Positions 2,661-20,507 of a stretch of 22,297 nucleotides of DNA are shown here, one piece after another (position 1 is the first letter of the stretch; every line of letters begins with the position of its first letter). The notes under the pieces were generated by a model. The model worked only from the letters and a program-made list of their open reading frames with translations. It was not told the DNA's origin and searched no databases. Position numbers and translations under genes: made by a program. The stretch covers positions 1-22,297 of the IMG/VR virus record IMGVR_UViG_3300032278_001178, one strand, 5' to 3'. This DNA is from a virus.

Positions 2661-2671
2661 GAGGACTGATG
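2658..2671 (+). promoter_or_regulatory. Fused stop, ribosome-binding site and start: TAGGAGGACTGATG
   Basis: The stop codon of the 54-residue protein (TAG) is the first part of a strong Shine-Dalgarno sequence, TAGGAGG, placed five bases before the ATG at 2669. The identical 14-base string occurs at 12396-12409, again with TAG as the real stop of the upstream gene. This decides the start of the 255-residue protein, whose frame is open further upstream. Confidence 0.85.
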
Positions 2672-3436
2672 GCTATAGATACCTACGGTTCATGGAAGGG
2701 GCACGGGAAACCTGTCAATATCAAAAAGTCTGCCCGCCTACGGGGAAATCTTGCATCGAACGCTGCCAGAAATCTGAACACAAACATCAACAACTTGGGG
2801 GGGTTCTTAAATAACAATTCGGCCTTTAAGAATATTAATTGGAAGCACCAAGTTCCTGGTGCTACGTCTGCTTGGGGGAACCAATACTCTGATGTCGCCC
2901 GTGGGTTTAACACTTCGCTAGCAGATATATCTTCTGCTGTTTATGGAGGATTAAACGGAGGTCGCGGGTTTCAGATGCCTGCTGCTGGTTGGCAGCCGTC
3001 AAACCCTAATTATCATTTGGTTAGAAACAGGACTTTTGGGAATCCTCGTGCGATTATGGCTGCTCAAATTCAGAATGCCATAACTAAGGCACAGCTTGGG
3101 ATGAATCGAAGTGATCTGCTTGGTACTGCTGCGATGACGTTAGGTGACATAGAGCGTGCTGGCTTACGTCACGATGAACAGTTGAAGGACCGACTGAACG
3201 CTAAGGGGGTTTACGATGGGGGCATTAAACAAAAAACATTGGGGGATGCTGTTGGGGAAAGGGTTCGTTACAAGGGTCGAACTCGGGACGCTTTGCAGCG
3301 GGGGTTGCGTAATCTAAGTCTGAGTGCTGATCAAGCGGATCTGATTCATTTCCAAACAGATACTAATTCTGCGCTTGCTGACGCTGATGCGATAAGGGCG
3401 AGGACGGCGGCGAAGGTTAAGGAGTTTAGTATCTGA
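2669..3436 (+). CDS. Uncharacterised virion protein candidate, 255 residues
   Basis: The start at 2669 is chosen for its strong AGGAGG ribosome-binding site; the upstream extension overlaps the previous gene and is Arg-rich nonsense. The N-terminal third is rich in Asn, Gly and Ser (NLNTNINNLGGFLNNNSAF), and the C-terminal 130 residues are helical and charged (from about NPRAIMAAQIQNAITKAQLG to ARTAAKVKEFSI). No family is recognised. It is the first of three consecutive genes of rising size (255, 474, 2244 residues). That arrangement recalls the internal core protein genes of T7-like phages, but only by size and context. The TGA overlaps the next ATG. Confidence 0.75.
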   Translation: MAIDTYGSWKGHGKPVNIKKSARLRGNLASNAARNLNTNINNLGGFLNNNSAFKNINWKHQVPGATSAWGNQYSDVARGFNTSLADISSAVYGGLNGGRGFQMPAAGWQPSNPNYHLVRNRTFGNPRAIMAAQIQNAITKAQLGMNRSDLLGTAAMTLGDIERAGLRHDEQLKDRLNAKGVYDGGIKQKTLGDAVGERVRYKGRTRDALQRGLRNLSLSADQADLIHFQTDTNSALADADAIRARTAAKVKEFSI

Positions 3437-4860
3437 TGGGACTGGACGATGATCTCAAGGGTTATGGGGGAAAAACTGGACCTTCTGGTCGCCCATATAC
3501 TCGCCGAGGTGCTGGGCAAGGCCAAGGCCCGAGGCAGTATCGGGGTAGGTATGGGAATGTTGACATAGCTACGGACGGCCAGTACGTTGGCGGTAATTGG
3601 CGTCGTCCAGGGACAGTTATCGCAGCATTGCGGGCTTTGGATCGTGACAAGTTGTCTGCCGAGCAGCGGCAATGGTCAAAGGACTTGGAGAAATTTTTAC
3701 TCAGTGGGGGACCTAAATCTGATCGTACGCCAAGAGGACAACGAGAAGGTTGGACTACTACTGTGCCAGCGGACTGGCAGAGTTCTTATACCGACGAAGA
3801 GATCGTAACTCCTGGGATCATGGGCACCCTGGGAAGGGGTGCCGCTGACGGATACGCTGGAACTGTTAAGAGATTCACCGATATGGTAGACGGCCCTCGA
3901 TACGCTCCAAATGATCCTCGTGGTTACTCGCAAGCTCCAGGTCAAACTCAAACAGGTCCGTGGAGTTCAGGACAGTTCACCGCTGGGTATCAGCCTCCTC
4001 CCGAAGAGCCAGATCTATGGGACGAATACTTCGACTTCCAAGAAAAATTCATCAAAGAAGGGGCTGAAACTACACGAACTACTATAAAGGACTACCAGGA
4101 CTTTGGTTTGGAACAGCTTGGGCTTGACGAATCAGCATTAGGTGTTCAGATAGATGAGCGGGAAGCGCAAACCGTTGGCTTGATGCAAGAGCAGGAAGAA
4201 GTTCGGAGAGCCGACTACGAGATGCTTACGGAGGGGCAAGGTGGAGATGTTTCGGCCCAAAACATTTATCTGGCAGAACTAGGGATAGACGATCCTGAGT
4301 TGTTTACTACTGAGCCTGCTAACGAATCGACTGCCCTGCTTGGAGCCAGCTACCGTGCTGGCGCTGAGGTAGGGCGCGTCATTCAGCACCAAGTCAATTT
4401 TGCTGCCAACTCGCTAAATTCGATCGTTGCAAGCGGCTTCTCCCAAAGCCGTCAGGATCTTTTGTTTAACGTCATGCAGCAAGGTGTAGCGCTTGATAGG
4501 TATGTGTCCGAGAATCTCGCCAAGGTTGAGTTGGCGAGGATGCAGAAAAAGATTGACGATGAGCAGGCAGCCGATGAGGCAAAGGCGTTGGCTGACTACG
4601 CCGTAGAGCTTGTACCTATGTTGGGTCTACACGCTAACTTGATTCTGGCTATGGAGAAGTACGACATCTTAGATCCGTTCGTTGATCAACTTTGGGCACC
4701 TGACGAGGAACAGTACTACTCGGTTGATCCCATGAATCCCAACCAAGAGCTTTCAAACGATCAGATCGCTTCGAATCTAGACATTTATAAGAAATTCCTA
4801 GATATCATTGGTACAGAAGAAGAACTCAAAGGCATGCACGACTATGACATTAGGCGATAG
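3436..4860 (+). CDS. Uncharacterised virion protein candidate, 474 residues
   Basis: The ATG overlaps the preceding stop (TGATG), with AGGAG at 3420-3424, eleven bases upstream. The first 40 residues are Gly/Arg-rich (GRPYTRRGAGQGQGPRQYRG) and probably disordered. A Pro/Gly-rich stretch follows to about residue 190. From about EPDLWDEYFDFQEKFIKEG onward the protein is acidic and largely helical. I see no signal peptide or clear membrane segment. No family is recognised. Placement directly before the 2244-residue gene suggests that the two products act together, perhaps as a structural or ejection complex. That link is inference. Confidence 0.75.
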   Translation: MGLDDDLKGYGGKTGPSGRPYTRRGAGQGQGPRQYRGRYGNVDIATDGQYVGGNWRRPGTVIAALRALDRDKLSAEQRQWSKDLEKFLLSGGPKSDRTPRGQREGWTTTVPADWQSSYTDEEIVTPGIMGTLGRGAADGYAGTVKRFTDMVDGPRYAPNDPRGYSQAPGQTQTGPWSSGQFTAGYQPPPEEPDLWDEYFDFQEKFIKEGAETTRTTIKDYQDFGLEQLGLDESALGVQIDEREAQTVGLMQEQEEVRRADYEMLTEGQGGDVSAQNIYLAELGIDDPELFTTEPANESTALLGASYRAGAEVGRVIQHQVNFAANSLNSIVASGFSQSRQDLLFNVMQQGVALDRYVSENLAKVELARMQKKIDDEQAADEAKALADYAVELVPMLGLHANLILAMEKYDILDPFVDQLWAPDEEQYYSVDPMNPNQELSNDQIASNLDIYKKFLDIIGTEEELKGMHDYDIRR

Positions 4861-4863
4861 CCA

Positions 4864-7800
4864 ATGGCAGTCCCAGATTCTTCTCCATTCAAATACAATC
4901 CTCAGAACATCAAAAAAGGTGTCATAACTCCTCAGCTAACTAAAAAGCTTCTAAACCGAAATGACATGTATAAGGGTTTGGGGTTGGGTGCTGACACAGA
5001 GGTAGCTAAGACTTCTCCGATTCCTGCCAATACGTTTAATCCGTGGGGTCGAGTGGCACGTCCTGATGTGCCTGAGAGGGAAGAAAACGCTATCTTCAAT
5101 ATCCCTATCTTGGGACGTGGTCTGGATCTTTTAGATACTCCTGGGGCGATGATCAGGTCGGCTGTTAAAGAGATTGGGGATATTTTTGCGGAGGATGAAA
5201 GTTTCTCTATTGGTGAGTGGTGGAAGCAGGCTGGTGACAACATCTTTATGGGTGAGGTGTTGCGTGATTGGGGAGTTGATCTTCCTGGGCCTCTGGATTT
5301 TGCTCTTGGGTTGACGTTGGATATTGCGTTTGATCCTTTGACGTATATGTTGCCGTTGGGTGCGTGGGCACGGGTGGCGACTAAGCCGCAGATGCTAAAA
5401 CATCTGACGGACGTTGCGACTGCGGCAAGATATGGCAAAGTCAAAGACATAGCCAAAGCGGAACGAATGGAAGCCGCAGCGGAACGGGTGGGGAAGAGAG
5501 GCATCTTTGCTGCAGGCAAAGATGTTCTCGAAGAACTTGGTTTACCTACCGCAATGAGGTTCTCTATGCCCCTGACGGGTCGCTTGGGGCGTGGCATATT
5601 CGAGCGTCCCTTACGGAACATTCCTGGGGTTGGCCCCAAGTTTGCTGCTTGGGCCAACAAGAAACGTGTAGGTCAACTTAAACCTGTCAATACTGAAGTG
5701 TTGGAGGTAGCGAAGCCTCTTAAAGCTTTATCGGAAGAAGCCATACAGACCAGAGTGTTGAAAGCTGTTCAACAGTTGGATGCGGCTAAAGGCGCTGGGA
5801 AGACAAAACAAGTTATAGACCGAACCGTTAAGCGTGCCCCCAAGACTGGGCGGCAGGTCATAACCTCTGCCCAAAGAGCGATGCGGATGCCTATCGAGCT
5901 ATCGTTCGAGATTCCCTACGGTTATGTTGCCTTAGCTGCAGTCGCTGGTCTGCCTGGGCGAGCCATGGGGGAAGCCCAGAAGTTCAAGATGATGAATACG
6001 TTGAGTAAGGGCTTGTCTACTCGTTTCGCTCTTAATCAAATGTACCGTTCTGGCAATGCTCTCGATATCCAAAACGCTTTGATGCTGGAAGGCGCAGGTG
6101 CTCGGGCCAATATTTTGGCAGGGACATTCGGTCGCAAGCACACATTAGCGCTTGATGCTGTGGTCGCAGAGGCCCGAACGCTAGATGCTGATCTTACCTT
6201 TGACGATATCTTTCGTGCAGGTAACGAACAGATGGGAACTGTAACAGCGGGCGAATTGAATCCGTTGTACGGTCCCTTCGCTACGGGTGGTGATCTGGAA
6301 GTTCAGGCTGTTGTCAAAAAATTGCAGACATGGTTTAAGGATGTCTTGGAGGATTACAATGTGTCGCTTCCGTGGAGTGAAGATCTTCCAGCTTTGCTTT
6401 CCGAGATGTATGTCACCCGTCAGATCGGTAGGAAACAGCGAAAGTTGGTAGCGAAAAACCCGAAGAGTGTGAGGCTTGACGAGTTTGGTCCTGAGCTTAC
6501 GGGAAGCCCGTTTGTGAACCGTGAACTTTCTCTTCCTGACGAAATTATTGCTCAAAGGACAAGCGGTAATATCTCGCAAGAGCAGATCGACATGGTTGAA
6601 GACTTATACAAGGTGTCTTTCGATGAGGCTCTCAACTCTGGGTTACCTGTGCAGGTAACCACAGAGGATGGACGGATTCTTCGTTCTTCGTTTATGGGTC
6701 AAGGGTTTAAGCCTTACGCTGCGGAAGGGGGTGGCAGTGTTCTCACCCAAATGGACAACATAGGTAAATCCCGAATGGGTACAGAGTATCAGGCGTTATT
6801 TACGGACGATGCGGCCATTGCTTTGCCCCGTTATTTAGGCATGATGACATCAACGGTTCGAGCTAAGTCAATCGTTGATGACTTAGCTCAAGCTGGGATC
6901 ATTGTTAAAGGAAACGATAAAGGGTACATAAACAATTTTGTAGGCAACAAAATTGCTAAGGGCATAGACGACGCAAAAAAGACACGTACCAAAGCGGAGA
7001 AGAAGAAGATCAGGTTAGAGAAGAGGATTGCTATTGAAGCAGAGGTTGTTTCCAAATATGCAGATGACCCTGTTGATGAGTTGGTAGCTGCTCAACCGAG
7101 GAATCGAAAAGGGATTGGTCCTATTCGACGTGAAACGGCGGCAGCCGTTGATCAACTTGTCGAGTTGAGGCAGGGGATAGAGGATATTGATTCAGCGGCG
7201 ACGGCGTTACGGGATGGCACTGCCGATCATTTGACTGAGGGTGGCAGAAGGATTCTTCAGGAGGGTCTACCTGAGCAGCCCAGGGTTGGAGGCAAGTTTG
7301 GTCCGAAGGTGAAGCCGCTTGGTCCTTCTGCCCGAGAGGCTAAAGCGCAAGCTGCGTACGACGCGATCACCGAGGCTGATGTCGCCAGTGCTATGGAAGA
7401 ACTGGTGCGGATTCGTGAGGCTATTGATATTGCTAGCCAGCAACGCAAAGCTATCGTTGCCGAGATAGAGAAGAGACTTAGGTTCAGTCCCGAGTCTGCT
7501 GACTTCATAGCTGAAGTTGAAGCCCTCGGGGAATACTTGGTTCAGCAGGAAGAGTGGATTCAGTATTTAGCTCAGAATGCTTCACGTAACATGCAGGAGT
7601 TAAGTGCAAGTGTTCAAGGCGCTGAGATATTGGAGCGGTTGGGCAAAGGCGACTTCGGTGATGTCACGTTCTTTAAGGCACATGTTTCTCACGCTCAGGA
7701 AACGGCTGTAGATGTAGCTACCCAAAGGGTTAGGGACGCAGAAGAAGTGTTGACTCAACGCAAACTGGTTGATGTTGATATTGGGGGCGGATCGGAAACT

Positions 7801-10800
7801 AAAGCTATTTGGAAGGCGTACACGGAAGCTAATCCTGGTTGGAACCGTAACACCACGATGAGTGCTGCGGTTTCGGGGAACAAGATTACTTTGAGAAATG
7901 TCGGTGAGCTTCAGTTGGAGCGCATCCAAAGATTCGCTAATGACTGGATTGCTCAAAGAGGCGGCACAGCCGTGTCTGACGGTATTCCGTTGCAGAAAGC
8001 TGGGAAGGAAGCTTCGACTTGGAGTGAGGCCCGCAACATGGGGGCCGAGAATTGGCCTGCTAGGGGTGTTGACGAGATTAACGAGTTGATAGCTGAGGAG
8101 TTGGGTGCTGGGTCAGTGGTGAAGTTTTCCACTGGACCTCAGAAGGGTGTGGGTGCTACTGGGGGCAGGATTCGTTCTACTGATGGAAGTTTAACTGAGC
8201 ATAGCGGGGAATTCGTTATCAGAAAAAAGTCTGATGCGGAGTGGGTTGTTGATGTCGATGGTACCGAGATTCCCATAACTGGTCCCCGTGCTTCGGAAAC
8301 CGCTGGGAGGAATGCTGGGGAGCAAGGTCTTGTCGTGTGGCTTCCTCGCCAACAGCGGTCAATCTATTTTAATCCCACACCACGTTCTGGTGTGTATGCC
8401 CAGAACGTGCCTAAGGCAGCTAACAAGCAGCAACTAGGTGCGGCTAGAGCGTTTGGCAGAAGGATTGATAATGCTTTAGACGAGCGAATGGAAGGAGTAC
8501 TCCAAGCGCAAGAACAAGTGGGGAAAGCTAAAGCTCGACTGATAGATGCGAATAAGGCGCTTCAGAAGGAATACACCCTGAACGTGGTTGAGTCTTTCAA
8601 CTTGCTTCAATATTCCAGTACTGCGGCACGGGAAGCTGCCCCTGCCCAAGAGGTAATCGAAAGGGTCGCTATTCGTATGCCTCCCCCTGGTCGGCAGACT
8701 ATTCCACAGCCGAGGGTTGGGCCACATGTGTCGTCTGTATCTTCGAGAGACCCGAATGTGCCAATGTGGGGCACCAGCGAGGGTGGGGTGCATCGCTTGG
8801 GGGGCAACAGGATTGAGGTTGATGGACCTAACGGACGCAGGATCGTTTTGGAAGGTGATGAGGCTAGAGATTATCTGCGTGCGAGGAGGCCAGCGTCAAC
8901 TGGTCCTCGCGCATTGCCCGAGGTGACGCCACAACCAACGCCAACCCCCAGATCTCCAGAGGTTTACGAGCGGGATGTCTTTGCTGTAAATACGAAAAGC
9001 GATGACTTGTGGATTTACGCTGATGAGGGAGCTACCCCGACCGAATGGACGGGTCGCGTCAACCCTGAGGACGGGGGTCCCAGGCCAGGGCTGTCGAGTG
9101 GCTCGGTTGACCGTGAACTAATATTGGTGCGCCCGACGGGGGAACTACACACAGCGACAAGTGGCGAAGTGTTCCGTGTCTATGAGCCAGTCCAGCTAGA
9201 CCCAACTATTCCCTTGCGACGCAGGGCAGGTGGCTCCAGAAGGGCTAGCGCCTGGGACCTGCAGGACTCGGTCGCTAGTGGGGGCAAAGTCGAGTTCGAT
9301 GACGCTGGTGAGGCACTGGTTACGGGACAGAATTTTCAGAAGGGTCGCTCCGCTAATCGGCAGTTCCGTGCCCGTGAGCAAAGGAACCATTGGGCGCTCT
9401 TGGATGAGGATGGGGTGATAGAGGCTCTAGAGTCTGGGACGTATGTCGGACCTGCGCCGAATATGAGTAGACGTACCAGTGGTGCGGAACAAGCGAAAGT
9501 GGAACAGATCTTTGGATCTGAGCCTTACAGGGGATGGATTGAAAAGGTTCAGGAAGTACAGAAATTGCAAGCAGAGTTGTTTGAAGCTGAGAAGTTTCTC
9601 ATTGGTTCGCTCAATCAGCCTCTGGCTGTCATTCAGAATCGCATGCTTCGCTACAACGAGGCAGCTAAGAAGCTTTTTGAAGCCAAGATCACTACTCTCA
9701 ATGACCAGATTGCTGCTGGGGTCAAGGGGAAACATGGGGCTGTAAGGAACCGAGAGGCGGTTAGGCAGCTTGAGTTCAGTAAACAAGCTTTAGAGGAACA
9801 GGTTGTAGCTGCCAACGAAGAGTTGGCTCGCATACGTCAGTGGTTGCAGGACAACGTCCCCGAACATACGAACGCGCAAGGAAACATTAAGAGGATTACA
9901 GAGGGTGAGATGGCTGTGGTGCTGCAGAGCATTGAGCAGCAAAGCAAAGTGATCAACGATTTTGTGCGTCAGATTGAGAAAGCTATCACTGACGTTAAAG
10001 CGGGTACTGTGACGAAGATTGACTATGCACAGTCACAGAAAGAAGCTCTGAAAGTTTTGAATAACGCTCGTGCCCAACACACTCTTGGTGCTGTCCACGA
10101 GCAGAATGTGGGTGAGTATCTGATTCAAAGCGGTGGGTTCGGTAAGAGCGGTGAGATATCGTCCAGAACGAAACGGCATCTGAGTGGCTATCAGCTTGTT
10201 AATGCTGGTGATGAGAGTGCCGAATTGTTTGAGGCTGCATTTGAGTCGATAGCTAGGCTTCGCAATCCCGTCCAAACCAAGGCTTGGATGCATAACTACA
10301 GCAAGTTTGTGAATTATTGGAAAGCTCAGGCTGTTGCTACGACTGGTTTCGTGTACCGAAACTTGATGGGTGGAACTTGGATCAATAACCAGATGGCTGG
10401 TGTTCCTGTGAGTTTGCATATGCGTGTGGATCTCATGCGGAAGAAAGCTTTGAAAGCAGCAGAGGACGCTGGTCGTCCTCGTGATGTTGCGTACGGTGCG
10501 AGGCTGATCGCTAAGGAAGGTAAGCGGGTACCGATTGGTCACGGTTTGGGTCGGGCTGAACCTCACGAGTGGAATGTGATGGCTGATTGGGCTGAGACTG
10601 GTATGGCTAATACTGGTCTCACTTCCATGGAAGTCAGGAACGCTGTTAATGAGGCTGGTAGTTCTCTTGTCGAACATGCGAAGACGGCGAAGGCTTGGAA
10701 GCCTTGGAGTTCAGAAAACATTTTGTTTACTTCGATTGGTCGTTTGAACCAGCGAGCAGAGTTCACTCTTCGTGGAGCTTTAGCCCATCACATTATGATG

Positions 10801-11598
10801 GGCGGGGGAAGCCCTGGAGAGGCTTTAGCTGCGGTTTACAAGTATCACTTTGACTACACGAACCTGACCCACATGGATCAGAAGATGAAAATGGTTATTC
10901 CGTTCTGGACGTGGCAGAAAAACATTATCCCTGTCCTGATTGAGTCGTTGGGGAAGAAACCACAGGCGTGGAATCGGATTGTGCAGGTCAAAGGCGAGCT
11001 TGAATTGACTTCGGAAAGAGAAGGAATTGTTCCTGATTACTTCGGGGAGAACATGGGGATCAGGTTGCCATTCCAGACTGACGGGAACCGTGTGTATGCC
11101 TTACCCGATCTTCCATTCAAGGACCTCGCCCGCTATTTGAAGACGCCTTCTTCTCCTGCGAGGGGTCTGATTGAGAGTGCGTTGCCGTTCTACAAGTTAC
11201 CTATCGAGTTGTGGGCAGGGAAACGTACGTTCGCTGACATCCCGTTTACTGGGAGGTACCAGCAGGTACCTCATGCGATGGAGAAGCTTCCTGGGTTTAT
11301 GCCCCTTATGGCTGCTTTCGGGAAGGCAGAAAAAAATAAGCGCGGCGAGTGGAAGATGAGGGATCAAACAATTTATGTTATCGAACAGTCGATGCCTCTT
11401 CTCGGCAGGTTGCGTCGTTTGATACCCAACGAGGATGCTAAACAGAAAAGACTTATGACCACATATTTCTCTACGCTCTTCGGTATGGGTTTGAGGACTA
11501 ACACTCCGCAGGAAAAACGTAACCAGTTAATCAAAGATAAGATTAAACACTCTGAGGATCGACGAGATCTATTAGATATAGAAACCAGGAAAGTATAG
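4864..11598 (+). CDS. Giant virion protein, 2244 residues, candidate internal/ejected protein
   Basis: This is the largest gene here, three bases after the previous stop, with a weak ribosome-binding site. Near residues 140-172 is a hydrophobic stretch, GPLDFALGLTLDIAFDPLTY, of a type I associate with giant phage virion proteins. Long charged helical, coiled-coil-like parts occur near 700-725 and 1560-1670. A Pro-rich linker lies near 1340-1375 (PEVTPQPTPTPRSP). The C-terminal part has a hydrophobic/aromatic segment near 1825-1850 (FVYRNLMGGTWINNQMAGVP) and another near 2008-2030 (MVIPFWTWQKNIIPVLIESL). Such C-terminal features fit a protein that contacts or crosses a membrane. I found no transglycosylase or RNA polymerase motif by eye. 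The size and two neighbours suggest an ejected inner-core role like T7 gp16. A tape measure or multidomain polyvalent protein remains possible. Confidence 0.8.
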   Translation: MAVPDSSPFKYNPQNIKKGVITPQLTKKLLNRNDMYKGLGLGADTEVAKTSPIPANTFNPWGRVARPDVPEREENAIFNIPILGRGLDLLDTPGAMIRSAVKEIGDIFAEDESFSIGEWWKQAGDNIFMGEVLRDWGVDLPGPLDFALGLTLDIAFDPLTYMLPLGAWARVATKPQMLKHLTDVATAARYGKVKDIAKAERMEAAAERVGKRGIFAAGKDVLEELGLPTAMRFSMPLTGRLGRGIFERPLRNIPGVGPKFAAWANKKRVGQLKPVNTEVLEVAKPLKALSEEAIQTRVLKAVQQLDAAKGAGKTKQVIDRTVKRAPKTGRQVITSAQRAMRMPIELSFEIPYGYVALAAVAGLPGRAMGEAQKFKMMNTLSKGLSTRFALNQMYRSGNALDIQNALMLEGAGARANILAGTFGRKHTLALDAVVAEARTLDADLTFDDIFRAGNEQMGTVTAGELNPLYGPFATGGDLEVQAVVKKLQTWFKDVLEDYNVSLPWSEDLPALLSEMYVTRQIGRKQRKLVAKNPKSVRLDEFGPELTGSPFVNRELSLPDEIIAQRTSGNISQEQIDMVEDLYKVSFDEALNSGLPVQVTTEDGRILRSSFMGQGFKPYAAEGGGSVLTQMDNIGKSRMGTEYQALFTDDAAIALPRYLGMMTSTVRAKSIVDDLAQAGIIVKGNDKGYINNFVGNKIAKGIDDAKKTRTKAEKKKIRLEKRIAIEAEVVSKYADDPVDELVAAQPRNRKGIGPIRRETAAAVDQLVELRQGIEDIDSAATALRDGTADHLTEGGRRILQEGLPEQPRVGGKFGPKVKPLGPSAREAKAQAAYDAITEADVASAMEELVRIREAIDIASQQRKAIVAEIEKRLRFSPESADFIAEVEALGEYLVQQEEWIQYLAQNASRNMQELSASVQGAEILERLGKGDFGDVTFFKAHVSHAQETAVDVATQRVRDAEEVLTQRKLVDVDIGGGSETKAIWKAYTEANPGWNRNTTMSAAVSGNKITLRNVGELQLERIQRFANDWIAQRGGTAVSDGIPLQKAGKEASTWSEARNMGAENWPARGVDEINELIAEELGAGSVVKFSTGPQKGVGATGGRIRSTDGSLTEHSGEFVIRKKSDAEWVVDVDGTEIPITGPRASETAGRNAGEQGLVVWLPRQQRSIYFNPTPRSGVYAQNVPKAANKQQLGAARAFGRRIDNALDERMEGVLQAQEQVGKAKARLIDANKALQKEYTLNVVESFNLLQYSSTAAREAAPAQEVIERVAIRMPPPGRQTIPQPRVGPHVSSVSSRDPNVPMWGTSEGGVHRLGGNRIEVDGPNGRRIVLEGDEARDYLRARRPASTGPRALPEVTPQPTPTPRSPEVYERDVFAVNTKSDDLWIYADEGATPTEWTGRVNPEDGGPRPGLSSGSVDRELILVRPTGELHTATSGEVFRVYEPVQLDPTIPLRRRAGGSRRASAWDLQDSVASGGKVEFDDAGEALVTGQNFQKGRSANRQFRAREQRNHWALLDEDGVIEALESGTYVGPAPNMSRRTSGAEQAKVEQIFGSEPYRGWIEKVQEVQKLQAELFEAEKFLIGSLNQPLAVIQNRMLRYNEAAKKLFEAKITTLNDQIAAGVKGKHGAVRNREAVRQLEFSKQALEEQVVAANEELARIRQWLQDNVPEHTNAQGNIKRITEGEMAVVLQSIEQQSKVINDFVRQIEKAITDVKAGTVTKIDYAQSQKEALKVLNNARAQHTLGAVHEQNVGEYLIQSGGFGKSGEISSRTKRHLSGYQLVNAGDESAELFEAAFESIARLRNPVQTKAWMHNYSKFVNYWKAQAVATTGFVYRNLMGGTWINNQMAGVPVSLHMRVDLMRKKALKAAEDAGRPRDVAYGARLIAKEGKRVPIGHGLGRAEPHEWNVMADWAETGMANTGLTSMEVRNAVNEAGSSLVEHAKTAKAWKPWSSENILFTSIGRLNQRAEFTLRGALAHHIMMGGGSPGEALAAVYKYHFDYTNLTHMDQKMKMVIPFWTWQKNIIPVLIESLGKKPQAWNRIVQVKGELELTSEREGIVPDYFGENMGIRLPFQTDGNRVYALPDLPFKDLARYLKTPSSPARGLIESALPFYKLPIELWAGKRTFADIPFTGRYQQVPHAMEKLPGFMPLMAAFGKAEKNKRGEWKMRDQTIYVIEQSMPLLGRLRRLIPNEDAKQKRLMTTYFSTLFGMGLRTNTPQEKRNQLIKDKIKHSEDRRDLLDIETRKV
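6641..6660 (+). repeat. Palindrome inside the giant virion gene (9-base arms)
   Basis: GGTTACCTG and CAGGTAACC are exact inverted arms separated by TG. The site lies within the coding sequence (residues near 593-599, LPVQVTT). It may be a protein-binding site or chance; nothing else marks it. Confidence 0.5.
11253..11272 (+). repeat. Inverted repeat inside the giant virion gene (8-base arms)
   Basis: GAGGTACC and GGTACCTC flank AGCA, near the 3' end of the giant gene. It shares a GGTA(N)CC-like core with the palindrome at 6641-6660. Function unknown; it may be chance. Confidence 0.45.
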
Positions 11599-11606
11599 TT
11601 TTAGTT

Positions 11607-12398
11607 ATGCGTACCATTATTTCTCGGCAGGGATGGGATGCGCGACCCCCTAAGAAACCTTTCACGCAACTGAAGAAGTGGCGTGTCCAGGGAATCGTGT
11701 TACATCACAGTGGAGTGAAGGAAGCTCCTAAAGGTATCGCGGCGTTGAAAGCTTTCGAGCGTTACCACATGGATTCTCGGGGCTGGAACGCTATCGCATA
11801 TAACTGGCTGGTTGACCCTGAGGGGGTCATCTACGCAGGAAGAGGAGCAGGAATTGTTTCGGGCGCTACGAAGGGCTGGAATAGCCGCACTGAGTCGGTT
11901 TGTTACACGGGTTGGGGGTTTCTCGAAATTCCACAGGCCGCAAGGGACTCGATCCGATGGCTCATAGGTGACATCCAAAGCAGGTATGACGACAAGCTGT
12001 GGGTGAAAGGCCATAGGGACCTGGGTAATTCGACGTGTCCAGGCAACTGGTTGTATGACTGGCTGGTTTCAGGCATGCCTATGCCGCTGGGTGACCCTAA
12101 CACTATTGACTGGGACGGAATCAAAGCTCACGTTGACAGGCTCAGAGAGAAGATCTCACACTCTCCGCTATCTGTAGCCAGAAGAAGTCGTGGGGAGGCT
12201 GTACGGGCCGTTCAGGAGCGTCTGAGCGACCTTGGGTTCGACCCTGGAGGGGTCGATGGTATTTGGGGGAGGAAGAGTAGTAAAGCCACCAAAGATTTCC
12301 AAAAAAGTTTTGAAGCTTTCTTGAAAGTCGATGGGATTGTGGGCCTACAAACATGGGATGCGCTGTTCGGGGGTTGGGCCACGACAGCTTTCATATAG
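11607..12398 (+). CDS. Endolysin: N-acetylmuramoyl-L-alanine amidase with peptidoglycan-binding domain
   Basis: The product has 263 residues. Residues about 10-150 form an Amidase_2/PGRP-type zinc amidase, which cuts the bond between muramic acid and the stem peptide. The first zinc His lies in IVLHHSG (H33/H34), and the other ligands lie in VKGHRDLGNSTCPG (H136, C144). AIAYNWLVD carries the expected active-site Tyr (Y65), followed by the typical PEGVIYAGRG. Residues about 195-254 are a PG_binding_1 repeat (RGEAVRAVQERLSDLGF...VDGIVGLQTWDALF). There is no signal peptide, which fits release through the holin encoded two genes downstream. The ribosome-binding site is weak (AGGA about 17 bases upstream). 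Its TAG stop is built into the next gene's ribosome-binding site. Confidence 0.95.
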   Translation: MRTIISRQGWDARPPKKPFTQLKKWRVQGIVLHHSGVKEAPKGIAALKAFERYHMDSRGWNAIAYNWLVDPEGVIYAGRGAGIVSGATKGWNSRTESVCYTGWGFLEIPQAARDSIRWLIGDIQSRYDDKLWVKGHRDLGNSTCPGNWLYDWLVSGMPMPLGDPNTIDWDGIKAHVDRLREKISHSPLSVARRSRGEAVRAVQERLSDLGFDPGGVDGIWGRKSSKATKDFQKSFEAFLKVDGIVGLQTWDALFGGWATTAFI

Positions 12399-12564: not shown

Positions 12565-12756
12565 ATGACTGAGGTTTCCCAAAAGAAATTCAACTGGACA
12601 GACTGGCTTGAAAGGTCTGTCTGGACAGCAGTCGAAGCAGGTTTAGCCGTAATGGTTGTCACCGATGTGAGCACATGGAAAGCTGCAGGTGCCGCAGCGA
12701 TGGCTGCTGGCATTGCAGCAGTCAAAACTTTAGCTAAGGGCCGCCTAGGTCGGTGA
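12565..12756 (+). CDS. Holin, r1t-like
   Basis: The product has 63 residues. A charged, Trp-containing N-terminus (KKFNWTDWLERSVWTAVEAG) leads into a hydrophobic segment (AGLAVMVVTDV). A short turn containing W, an Ala-rich second segment (AAGAAAMAAGIAAVKTL) and a basic tail (KGRLGR) follow. This ER..(T/V)..A.LA..(W)KAA pattern is that of the r1t-type holin family of phages of Gram-positive bacteria. It would form the membrane lesions that release the endolysin. Start ATG at 12565 with TAGGAG (the upstream stop) five bases before its core end; the position next to the amidase strongly supports the call. Confidence 0.85.
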   Translation: MTEVSQKKFNWTDWLERSVWTAVEAGLAVMVVTDVSTWKAAGAAAMAAGIAAVKTLAKGRLGR

Positions 12757-14112: not shown

Positions 14113-14453
14113 TTCTTTTCCCCGATGATCCGATAGATCTGTAGGTCGTCGTCGTAGGCGACACCGTTAAGTGCGTCCTCTACGGCTTTCAGATAGTTCG
14201 TTGCGTCGCCACGCAACGGACATTTCTCTGCTTCATAAGGAGTGATGGTTACTACTGTTTCGGTTGCTGTCAACAGGCAATGGAGTTCCACTGGTCCTTC
14301 AAACTTTGGGCCATCGTAAAGGTTCCTTATCTCCTCCTCCCGTTCCCTAGTGTTCTTCGGGGTGTAGGTCCGTCCACTCTTCGTGAAACGTGGCCGTCCC
14401 TTCACCCTTGGTTTCCCAGGGATCGAAAACGTGTAGGCATCAGGACGCTTCAT
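14109..14453 (-). CDS. RusA-like Holliday junction resolvase
   Basis: The product has 114 residues, close to the 120 of E. coli RusA. The start at 14453 is chosen because MKRPDAYTFSIPGKPRVKGR is the expected first strand (IPGKPRVKGRPRF). The longer frame lies wholly inside the primase gene. The core GDATNYLKAVEDALNGVAYD followed by DDLQI matches the family signature D-x-D-N..K...DAL......DD.Q. RusA dimers cut four-way junctions using Asp residues on this face. The second Asp of D-x-D-N is Thr here (D83-A-T85-N86); D93 and D101-D103 are kept. It overlaps the primase stop by 14 bases and the next gene by four. Confidence 0.85.
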   Translation of the reverse strand: MKRPDAYTFSIPGKPRVKGRPRFTKSGRTYTPKNTREREEEIRNLYDGPKFEGPVELHCLLTATETVVTITPYEAEKCPLRGDATNYLKAVEDALNGVAYDDDLQIYRIIGEKK

Positions 14454-15354
14454 CTGCTGCTTTCTGAACGAGGTTCCGAAGCTGCGCTTCTCGGTCGCTA
14501 CGGTTTGAGAACTTCTCAAGTCTGTCATCGAGTCGCCGCACCCAATCCACAGTAGCGTCAAAGGAGAAGCCTTGCCACAGCAAGCTCGCAGCAAAGGCAT
14601 ACATCGTTGAAGAGCGATCCTCTGTGCGGAGGTCCTCCCAAATTTTTTGGGCGATGCCTATGAAACCGTCCTTCGGGGTGTGTCCCTGCAGCGGCTGTTT
14701 CAGTTTGGGTTTGGTTGCCTCGTAGAGAGGGAGCAGCGACCTGAAGAGGTGGACGGGTGTTCGGTGTTTCCATGCACGTTCAGTGAACACGGTTACATCA
14801 AGCATCCCTTCCCCGTCAGGGTCGAACACCTCATGCCTACCTGCTTTCCTGTCATGGGGGTAAGGCAAACGCAGGCAGTTGCCAACCTGACTGCTGTCAA
14901 GGGTTACTTGTTTCGGGTACACCTCTCGGATGGGTACCTCCACCACTCGGCAGGCTCCGACCATAGAGTTTCTTCCTATCGAAGCTGAGATAGGTTCTTT
15001 GAGGTACACCCAAACGTGGTATCCCTTGCTCTTGGATGTTTCTTTCCAGGCTGTAATGTTCTTGGCTTTGAGTAAGCCGATCAGGTTGTCAGCGTGGACG
15101 TTGGAGACTTCTCCTTCGTCCAAGTCCACTGCTATCCAGTTGACCATCCATACACCGTTCCTCTTCCATAGCGGGTACACACCTAGGGCTGGTCCTTCTC
15201 CTACGAGATGTTTGCCGATGTGTTCCTCTGTCACCAAGGCGTAGTCACCGTTCTCTTCTTTGAGGGGACTCACCCCTTTGGAAACTTTTGCGAGGTGACC
15301 ACCTTGGTGGAGGTCAGTGAATTTTTGTTTGATTGGTTTGGTTACTCGACCCAT
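14440..15354 (-). CDS. DNA primase of the archaeo-eukaryotic (Prim-Pol) type
   Basis: The product has 304 residues. Residues 73-81, WIAVDLDEG, give the metal-binding D-x-D (D77, D79). SKSKGYHVWVYL (107-118) gives the S.sKG.H motif with H113. LRLPYPHDRKAGRHEVFDPD follows. This order is that of the AEP superfamily, closest in feel to the TOTE-type primase domain. It should make primers for phage replication and may also polymerise DNA. Residues from about 225 on (PKDGFIGIAQKIWEDLR..., TVDWVRRLDDRLEKFSNRSD) look like the helical C-terminal part of phage primases. It overlaps the helicase gene by 13 bases and RusA-like by 14, which suggests coordinate synthesis. Confidence 0.85.
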   Translation of the reverse strand: MGRVTKPIKQKFTDLHQGGHLAKVSKGVSPLKEENGDYALVTEEHIGKHLVGEGPALGVYPLWKRNGVWMVNWIAVDLDEGEVSNVHADNLIGLLKAKNITAWKETSKSKGYHVWVYLKEPISASIGRNSMVGACRVVEVPIREVYPKQVTLDSSQVGNCLRLPYPHDRKAGRHEVFDPDGEGMLDVTVFTERAWKHRTPVHLFRSLLPLYEATKPKLKQPLQGHTPKDGFIGIAQKIWEDLRTEDRSSTMYAFAASLLWQGFSFDATVDWVRRLDDRLEKFSNRSDREAQLRNLVQKAADEAS

Positions 15355-19751: not shown

Positions 19752-20507
19752 TCACTTGGTGGCTGCGAAACGCACGTTGTTCACGCCCGTTATGCACAGT
19801 CCACATTCGACACAGGCTCCTCGGCCTGTCCGATCTTCATTCCATACGGCTAACGGGATCTTCCCTGTTAGCTCGGGGCAGCGTGGTCCCCGCCGTTGAC
19901 CAGGGAACGTCCGAGCTATCGCTTCGGTTGCTTCCCAGCTTTCAGCGGTAAAGGCCAGCTTCACCCATGGATATGTCTTACTCGTACGGCGTGCTTCTTT
20001 CACGTTGTCTTTGTCTACGGATAAGTAGACGACAAGGTTGTCAGCTTTCAGCCGTCTGATTACGTTGAATGTTCTGGTGTACAACCAGAACTTGATTTGT
20101 GGAAACCGTTTACAGACTCGCCGTACGGCAGTCGCAAACTCTGGGGTAGGGATGTCTCCATCCCAGAACCATCTGAACACCCAGTCCTCGGGGTCACTCC
20201 ACTTCTGCATGTGGGTGAACGAACGTTCAACCACATCGTAAAGGAGTTCTTCCAGTTTGTCTGGGTTATCCAGATGGGGTTCAACTAGCTGCCAGTTTCT
20301 CTCCAACGCATCGCGGGTATGTTTGAAGACGACCTCCAGCTTGCGTGCATAACACATAGCCTCACAAGTTGGAGTCGATCCCCAGCATGACTTGATTGCT
20401 GGAAGTCCGAATGCGTTAGGGACCCTGACATAAGCGTCGTTCCCCGATTCATATTTGCGCTGCATCATAGGTGCAGTCTTACGGTCAGTGCTGAGATGTA
20501 GGCTCAC
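19752..20507 (-). CDS. Gp88-family Cys-rich protein
   Basis: The product has 251 residues, from a GTG start that overlaps the previous stop (GTGA) and follows GGGGGAGAGG. The N-terminal region has FGLPAIKSCWGSTPTCEAMC followed by YARK (C41, C48, C52). The middle has strands DWVFRWFWDGDIP, IKFWLYTRTFNVIRRL and LVVYLSVDKDN, which look like a barrel. The C-terminus has CPELTGKIP and GACVECGLCITGVNNVRF (C210, C232, C235, C238). This arrangement fits the gene product 88 family of mycobacteriophages and relatives. The Cys sets could bind Fe-S or zinc. The biochemical role of the family is, to my knowledge, not settled. Confidence 0.8.
   Translation of the reverse strand: MSLHLSTDRKTAPMMQRKYESGNDAYVRVPNAFGLPAIKSCWGSTPTCEAMCYARKLEVVFKHTRDALERNWQLVEPHLDNPDKLEELLYDVVERSFTHMQKWSDPEDWVFRWFWDGDIPTPEFATAVRRVCKRFPQIKFWLYTRTFNVIRRLKADNLVVYLSVDKDNVKEARRTSKTYPWVKLAFTAESWEATEAIARTFPGQRRGPRCPELTGKIPLAVWNEDRTGRGACVECGLCITGVNNVRFAATK

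Follow-up and report, generated by a model that had tools for sequence, protein, structure and literature searches.

Comparison with described ejection systems

Ejection proteins have been described in phages of Gram-negative hosts and are absent from phi29-like phages of Gram-positive bacteria, according to a review from 2022. The closest described systems are gp14-gp15-gp16 of phage T7, gp7-gp20-gp16 of P22 and gp52-gp51-gp50 of N4, the last of which is a virion RNA polymerase. We compared these systems with three genes in a marine virus fragment of 22,297 bases (the window), which encode a small, a middle and a giant protein of 255, 474 and 2244 residues. As in the T7 and P22 cassettes, the three genes were consecutive, ran from small to large and followed the tail genes. 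The window trio was also helical like the T7 proteins, and T7 gp15 and gp16 were likewise free of cysteine. In contrast to T7, there was no sequence similarity and no transglycosylase domain, the small protein was less hydrophobic than gp14, and the window giant was 1.7 times larger than gp16. P22 resembled the window in gene order, in the sizes of the first two proteins (229 and 471 aa) and in the absence of cysteine from all three, but it showed no sequence similarity and its gp16 has 609 aa. In N4, two smaller proteins and one giant are also all cysteine-free; however, sequence similarity was again absent, and no polymerase domain was recognised in the window giant.

A sequence-only reading of this DNA had stated that both order and sequence differ from T7 gp14-gp15-gp16. 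The order is in fact that of T7 14-15-16 and P22 7-20-16, while the difference in sequence held, as profiles of the giant's ends revealed no homology to T7 ejection proteins. In particular, N- and C-terminal giant profiles scored no better than reversed decoys against proteins of T7, P22, phiKMV, P-SSP7 and N4 (HMM and hhalign), and the best hhalign probability against ejection proteins was 1.3%. The exception was an isolated E-value of 0.0019 against T7 gp14, which was unsupported by hhalign (0.4%). Judged by hydropathy only, the small protein lacked a gp14-type hydrophobic stretch, with a best value of 0.46 compared with 0.90-1.31 in the controls.

Structure prediction for the giant gave two low-confidence models (pLDDT 54 and 56), for which Foldseek and VIA-align found nothing reliable. 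Models this poor say little for or against a tape measure fold, which the sequence-only reading had named as speaking against its proposal. The top-ranked row for the N-terminal model was the T7 core (9jyy_G, E 0.64, below trust level), and the other comparison placed the PhiM1 ejectosome first (8vb2_A, Z-score 6.3, rmsd 6.1, 230 aligned residues, also below trust level). These two rankings are not independent, and such scores mean little for helical proteins.

Gene trio and genomic surroundings

The three plus-strand genes practically abut (Table 1). The small-protein ORF can be extended to an ATG at 2609, which would give 275 aa, but the ATG at 2669 is favoured because AGGAGG precedes it. 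Between the window and a 38 kb relative, dN/dS was 0.108/0.192 for the small protein, 0.243/0.529 for the middle protein and 0.044/0.113 for the giant. Since relatives retain all three genes with dN/dS below 1, the trio consists of genuine genes, and it is under purifying selection. These results bear out the earlier statement that proteins of 255, 474 and 2244 residues occur in this order. The middle protein was the fastest evolving of the three; its position was conserved between groups while its sequence was barely recognisable. The small protein had a core remotely shared with the small proteins of relatives.

Table 1. Positions of the cassette genes, regions of the giant and boundary genes in the window.
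Feature	Position	Strand	Basis and remarks
Small cassette protein, 255 aa	2669..3436	+	ORF, AGGAGG upstream; no Cys; candidate counterpart by position of T7 gp14 / P22 gp7
Middle cassette protein, 474 aa	3436..4860	+	ORF; no Cys; candidate counterpart by position of T7 gp15 / P22 gp20 (471 aa)
Giant, 2244 aa	4864..11598	+	No Cys; candidate counterpart by position of T7 gp16 / P22 gp16
Giant, conserved N-terminal region, residues 1-720	4864..7023	+	Alignments A2, A5
Giant, length-variable middle, about residues 951-1600	7714..9663	+	Column occupancy 0.25-0.75
Giant, conserved C-terminal domain, residues 1720-2244, motif KYHFDYTNLTHMDQKMKMVIPFWTWQKNIIP	10021..11595	+	Alignment A4, profile matches
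Endolysin (Amidase_2 + PG_binding_1)	11607..12398	+	Directly after the cassette; boundary, outside the putative machine
Holin-like protein	12565..12756	+	Boundary marker

The left part of the window contained tail-fibre-like genes, followed by the trio, the amidase endolysin and the holin-like gene, and the right part carried replication genes in the opposite orientation. Several other genes were observed. Neighbouring genes at 428-787 and 797-1153 encode paralogues of 119 and 118 aa, which belong to PHROG 30535. A small protein at 2107-2499 has a terminal Glu/Asp run (EEEEEEDEEEEEEEEEE-like) and is overlapped in another frame by an Arg-Gly-rich ORF at 2427-2660. On the minus strand, 14440-15354 encodes an archaeo-eukaryotic type primase (AEP-TOTE, 4.6e-17), and 19752-20507 encodes a member of the Gene product 88 family (GP88, 3e-35), which has no known function.

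The window is without head genes, and the virion context was taken from relatives. The 38 kb relative (G001, 38,348 bases) encodes a giant 92% identical to that of the window. Its genes were arranged in the order small terminase, large terminase, portal, scaffold, major capsid protein and adaptor, followed by a 523-residue nozzle-like protein, fibres, the small, middle and giant proteins and the endolysin. The portal and adaptor matched SU10_portal, P22_portal and SU10_adaptor. The large terminase was present as two overlapping ORFs of 299 and 223 aa (L009:2399-3966). The circular complete genome MW202803 showed a similar arrangement. No gene for a tail tube, tail-assembly chaperone, terminator or tape measure was found in the 38 kb relative; tail-tube genes next to the giant were one of two features that the sequence-only reading had named as speaking against its proposal. 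Judging from gene content, the head and tail of this relative are those of a podovirus.

Relatives in cultured podoviruses

A profile search with the giant C-terminal region identified 42 loci in viral contigs. Complete giant genes encoded 823 to 2972 residues, and the gene for the middle-sized protein ended within about 22 bases of these giant genes across the family. The C-terminal profile matched gp37 of Microbacterium phage Shocker at 8.8e-15 and Cellulosimicrobium phage DS1 at 1e-10, and it matched the Jasmine giant directly but weakly at 0.0058, in a small database to which these E-values refer and in which reversed decoys started at 0.07. DS1 was in turn linked to Jasmine and Adat at 5e-27 to 5e-26, with Jasmine at 5e-27. 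The window giant therefore belongs to a C-terminal domain family (HFDY...PFW/YTW) with Shocker, DS1 and, through DS1, Jasmine.

Electron microscopy (EM) has shown Arthrobacter phage Jasmine to be a podovirus whose tail measures 10 nm, and Adat, GurgleFerb and Nellie are also podoviruses. The trio of Jasmine (gp27-gp28-gp29, cluster AV), Shocker (gp35-37) and DS1 resembled that of the window in order, in size (238-431-1803, 244-417-1743 and 247-441-1783 residues, respectively) and in its position directly upstream of the lysis genes, although in these phages it carries only hypothetical-protein annotation. The three giants lack cysteine and have C-terminal domains homologous to that of the window giant. 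In contrast, their middle proteins were not recognisably similar to that of the window, and their replication genes differed. Profile comparison revealed no connection between the middle proteins of group A (window) and group G (Jasmine); for the small proteins, it gave 0.9% directly, and the two groups were joined only by weak links via intermediate groups. Podovirus morphology is proven for Jasmine and predicted for the window virus. The trio is not confined to the window virus but is present in cultured podoviruses of soil actinobacteria.

A 45% identical cassette was found on a contig binned as Acidimicrobiaceae TMED189. Since bins assigned to phage contigs cannot be relied on, this gives no more than a lead to an actinobacterial host for the window; the less hydrophobic small protein would fit a host without an outer membrane. 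More distant C-terminal matches were on contigs binned as Bacillota, Prevotella, Proteobacteria and Phycisphaerae.

These relatives bear on whether the giant is the tail tape measure protein of a long-tailed phage. It is large, helical and cysteine-free like lambda gpH. However, both the 38 kb relative and Jasmine have a portal, an adaptor and a nozzle-like protein with no tube or tape measure found; in the former, the portal and adaptor are of podovirus type and neither chaperone nor terminator was detected. EM-proven podoviruses are among the relatives, and the family's range in length has no long tail to measure, which makes a tape measure very improbable.

Architecture of the giant protein

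The giant could be divided into conserved N- and C-terminal parts and a length-variable middle. Among the 20 aligned closest giants, both ends were conserved, while the middle was mostly missing in relatives of 1437-1611 aa. The previously noted N-terminal hydrophobic patch was located, with LGLTLDIAFDPLTY at residue 148, and a DIAxDPLTY motif lies at about residues 153-161 within the conserved N-terminal region. The two C-terminal aromatic/hydrophobic segments were also located, around residues 1985-2050 and 2080-2145. The coiled coils that had been claimed were suggested solely by profile matches to coiled-coil structures, and these matches were nonspecific. Nowhere was the giant as hydrophobic as a classical transmembrane helix, the best mean hydropathy over 19 residues being 1.23. 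Searches of Pfam, PHROGs, NCBIfam and the PDB gave chance or coiled-coil matches alone, and the matches to 'YgfZ_barrel', 'HUN', 'IMS_HHH' and 'blaBOR' were rejected as chance.

This architecture is relevant to three other readings of the giant. As an external tail or receptor-binding structure, for which the small and middle proteins would be assembly partners, it would suit its position after the tail-fibre gene block. No fibre, spike or lectin domain was found in it, however, and it is cysteine-free with both ends conserved, whereas the tail-fibre-like proteins are variable and some contain cysteine; we consider such a structure unlikely.

The giant could instead be an N4-like RNA polymerase that is carried in the virion and transcribes early genes after its ejection. 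In favour of this, it is large, cysteine-free and helical and stands beside two smaller cysteine-free proteins, as with N4 50-51-52; the same argument has been used for phage StenR_269. Strings of the T/DxxGR type, which might form part of the catalytic motif set of a T7-like RNA polymerase (T/DxxGR with motifs A, B and C), occur in the giant at 600, 791 and 1956. Against this reading, profile comparison with N4 gp50 gave a probability of 1.3% or less, neither PHROGs nor Pfam yielded a match, and the shortest relatives (823-1140 aa) could scarcely hold a core of roughly 1100 residues together with the conserved ends. A polymerase is quite unlikely.

Some relatives contain additional domains. 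Two A3 members, including L045 (residues 2882-2941), have an HHH_3 helix-hairpin-helix at the giant's C-terminal end, which in L045 is possibly a DNA-binding addition. Residues 606-739 of the L074 giant (L074:3432-9515) match a ddrB-like ParB domain (PF18763, 5.8e-15), which is known from polyvalent phage proteins. Such domains and the length-variable middle would be expected if the giant were chiefly a carrier of polyvalent effectors that enter with the DNA to counter host defences, with the conduit built by other proteins. However, no recognisable domain was present in the window giant or in any A2 member, and this function is improbable as the chief one, though compatible with an ejection cassette.

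Exclusion of cysteine

The window giant has no in-frame cysteine codon, whereas TGY triplets number 68 and 148 in its two other frames. Across 42 giants (72,759 aa, 19 clusters below 40% identity), no cysteine was found outside an apparent intein in one relative, L073. Rates in other proteins at the same loci predict about 100 to 330 cysteines for the cluster representatives; the lower of these rates (0.32%) was counted on plus-strand proteins. The middle proteins were also cysteine-free (21 of 21). The 28 other proteins of at least 350 aa at these loci contained 149 cysteines, and the only two without any were small cassette proteins.

Six cysteines occur in the L073 giant, none of them outside residues 794 to 1098. 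This giant was rejected as a real exception, as its cysteines are confined to the apparent intein (L073:7002-7976, giant residues 794-1118). This insert begins with C and ends at the junction of SGN and T. From end to end, it could be aligned with parts of the portal, TerL and DNA polymerase genes of phages that are unrelated, and no intein model was matched in Pfam or NCBIfam. The insert separates FDYQEL from TDFERKV..IPFYTW in the most conserved motif of this distant giant, which is probably essential because the insert sits inside it; the flanking protein is cysteine-free.

Among reference proteins picked by hand, cysteine was absent from the known ejected proteins T7 gp15/16, P22 gp7/20/16, phiKMV 35-37, P-SSP7 15/16 and N4 50-52, while T7 gp14 and P-SSP7 gp14 have one cysteine apiece. 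In this sample, the cysteine-free proteins above 700 residues were T7 gp15 and gp16, phiKMV 36 and 37, P-SSP7 15 and 16, N4 gp50, the lambda tape measure gpH (853 aa) and giants of the window's kind, and every large external or portal protein had at least one cysteine. Several non-ejected virion proteins of up to about 570 aa were cysteine-free, and below that length the rule does not discriminate. The D29 tape measure has one cysteine. Since the lambda tape measure has none, context must tell an ejection protein from a tape measure.

The cysteine idea is already known for N4-like giants. A lack of cysteine has been reported for N4-type polymerases, where it was tied to cell entry, has served as an argument for StenR_269 and has been noted in Zobellviridae proteins; cysteine goes unmentioned both in a recent ejection-protein review and in a paper on an N4 structure.

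The Microbacterium phages Burro and Akoni also encode cysteine-free giants of over 4,400 aa in actinobacterial podoviruses, namely gp27 (4491 aa, L059:4189-17664) and gp31 (4487 aa, L060:85-13548). Tested as homologues of the window giant, they showed no detectable homology, and unlike it, their genes lie before the portal rather than before lysis. Burro virions contain a protein of about 250 kDa that was attributed to gp27 (PMC7302621), and Burro's giant is probably a virion component. The absence of cysteine suggests that both giants are ejected too.

Proposed role and implications

The genes, their order, the podovirus context, the family membership and the exclusion of cysteine are established here. 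Together, a podovirus genome in which no tape measure or tube was found, the trio before lysis, an EM-proven relative and the missing cysteine best support a role in ejection, and we infer with a probability of roughly three in four that the trio is an ejection (internal virion) cassette of a podovirus. By analogy with T7, P22 and N4, the three proteins would sit in the head close to the portal and would exit by way of the portal and short tail, either ahead of the DNA or together with it. They may then assemble a temporary conduit in the host envelope, through which the DNA would follow. Near the tail, the conduit would be built from the small and middle proteins. The giant, whose ends are conserved and whose middle is interchangeable, could continue it into the cell and carry or deliver cargo domains. 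The lack of cysteine fits proteins that would be threaded through a narrow channel in a partly unfolded state and refold without disulphide errors.

The sequence-only reading had suggested an independent DNA-ejection machine. Its ejection part agrees with the context, gene order, podovirus relatives and cysteine content, while independence is not established. No homology was found, but independence does not follow, because ejection proteins of known systems have diverged too far for their sequences to be recognisable, and such weak structural hints as the poor models give point to T7-type core proteins. The cassette is possibly of independent origin.

Because the cassette can be recognised in actinobacterial podoviruses that are in culture, ejection across an envelope with one membrane and a thick wall can be tested directly. 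The cysteine rule offers an inexpensive and verifiable way of predicting which proteins pass the portal. More tentatively, and with considerable doubt, the cassette may represent a separate ejection lineage in actinobacterial and, distantly, other-phyla podoviruses, not descended from those of T7, P22 or N4, with cysteine exclusion as a general mark of large portal-threaded proteins. If this were true, cysteine exclusion would be good enough to find ejection machines blind.
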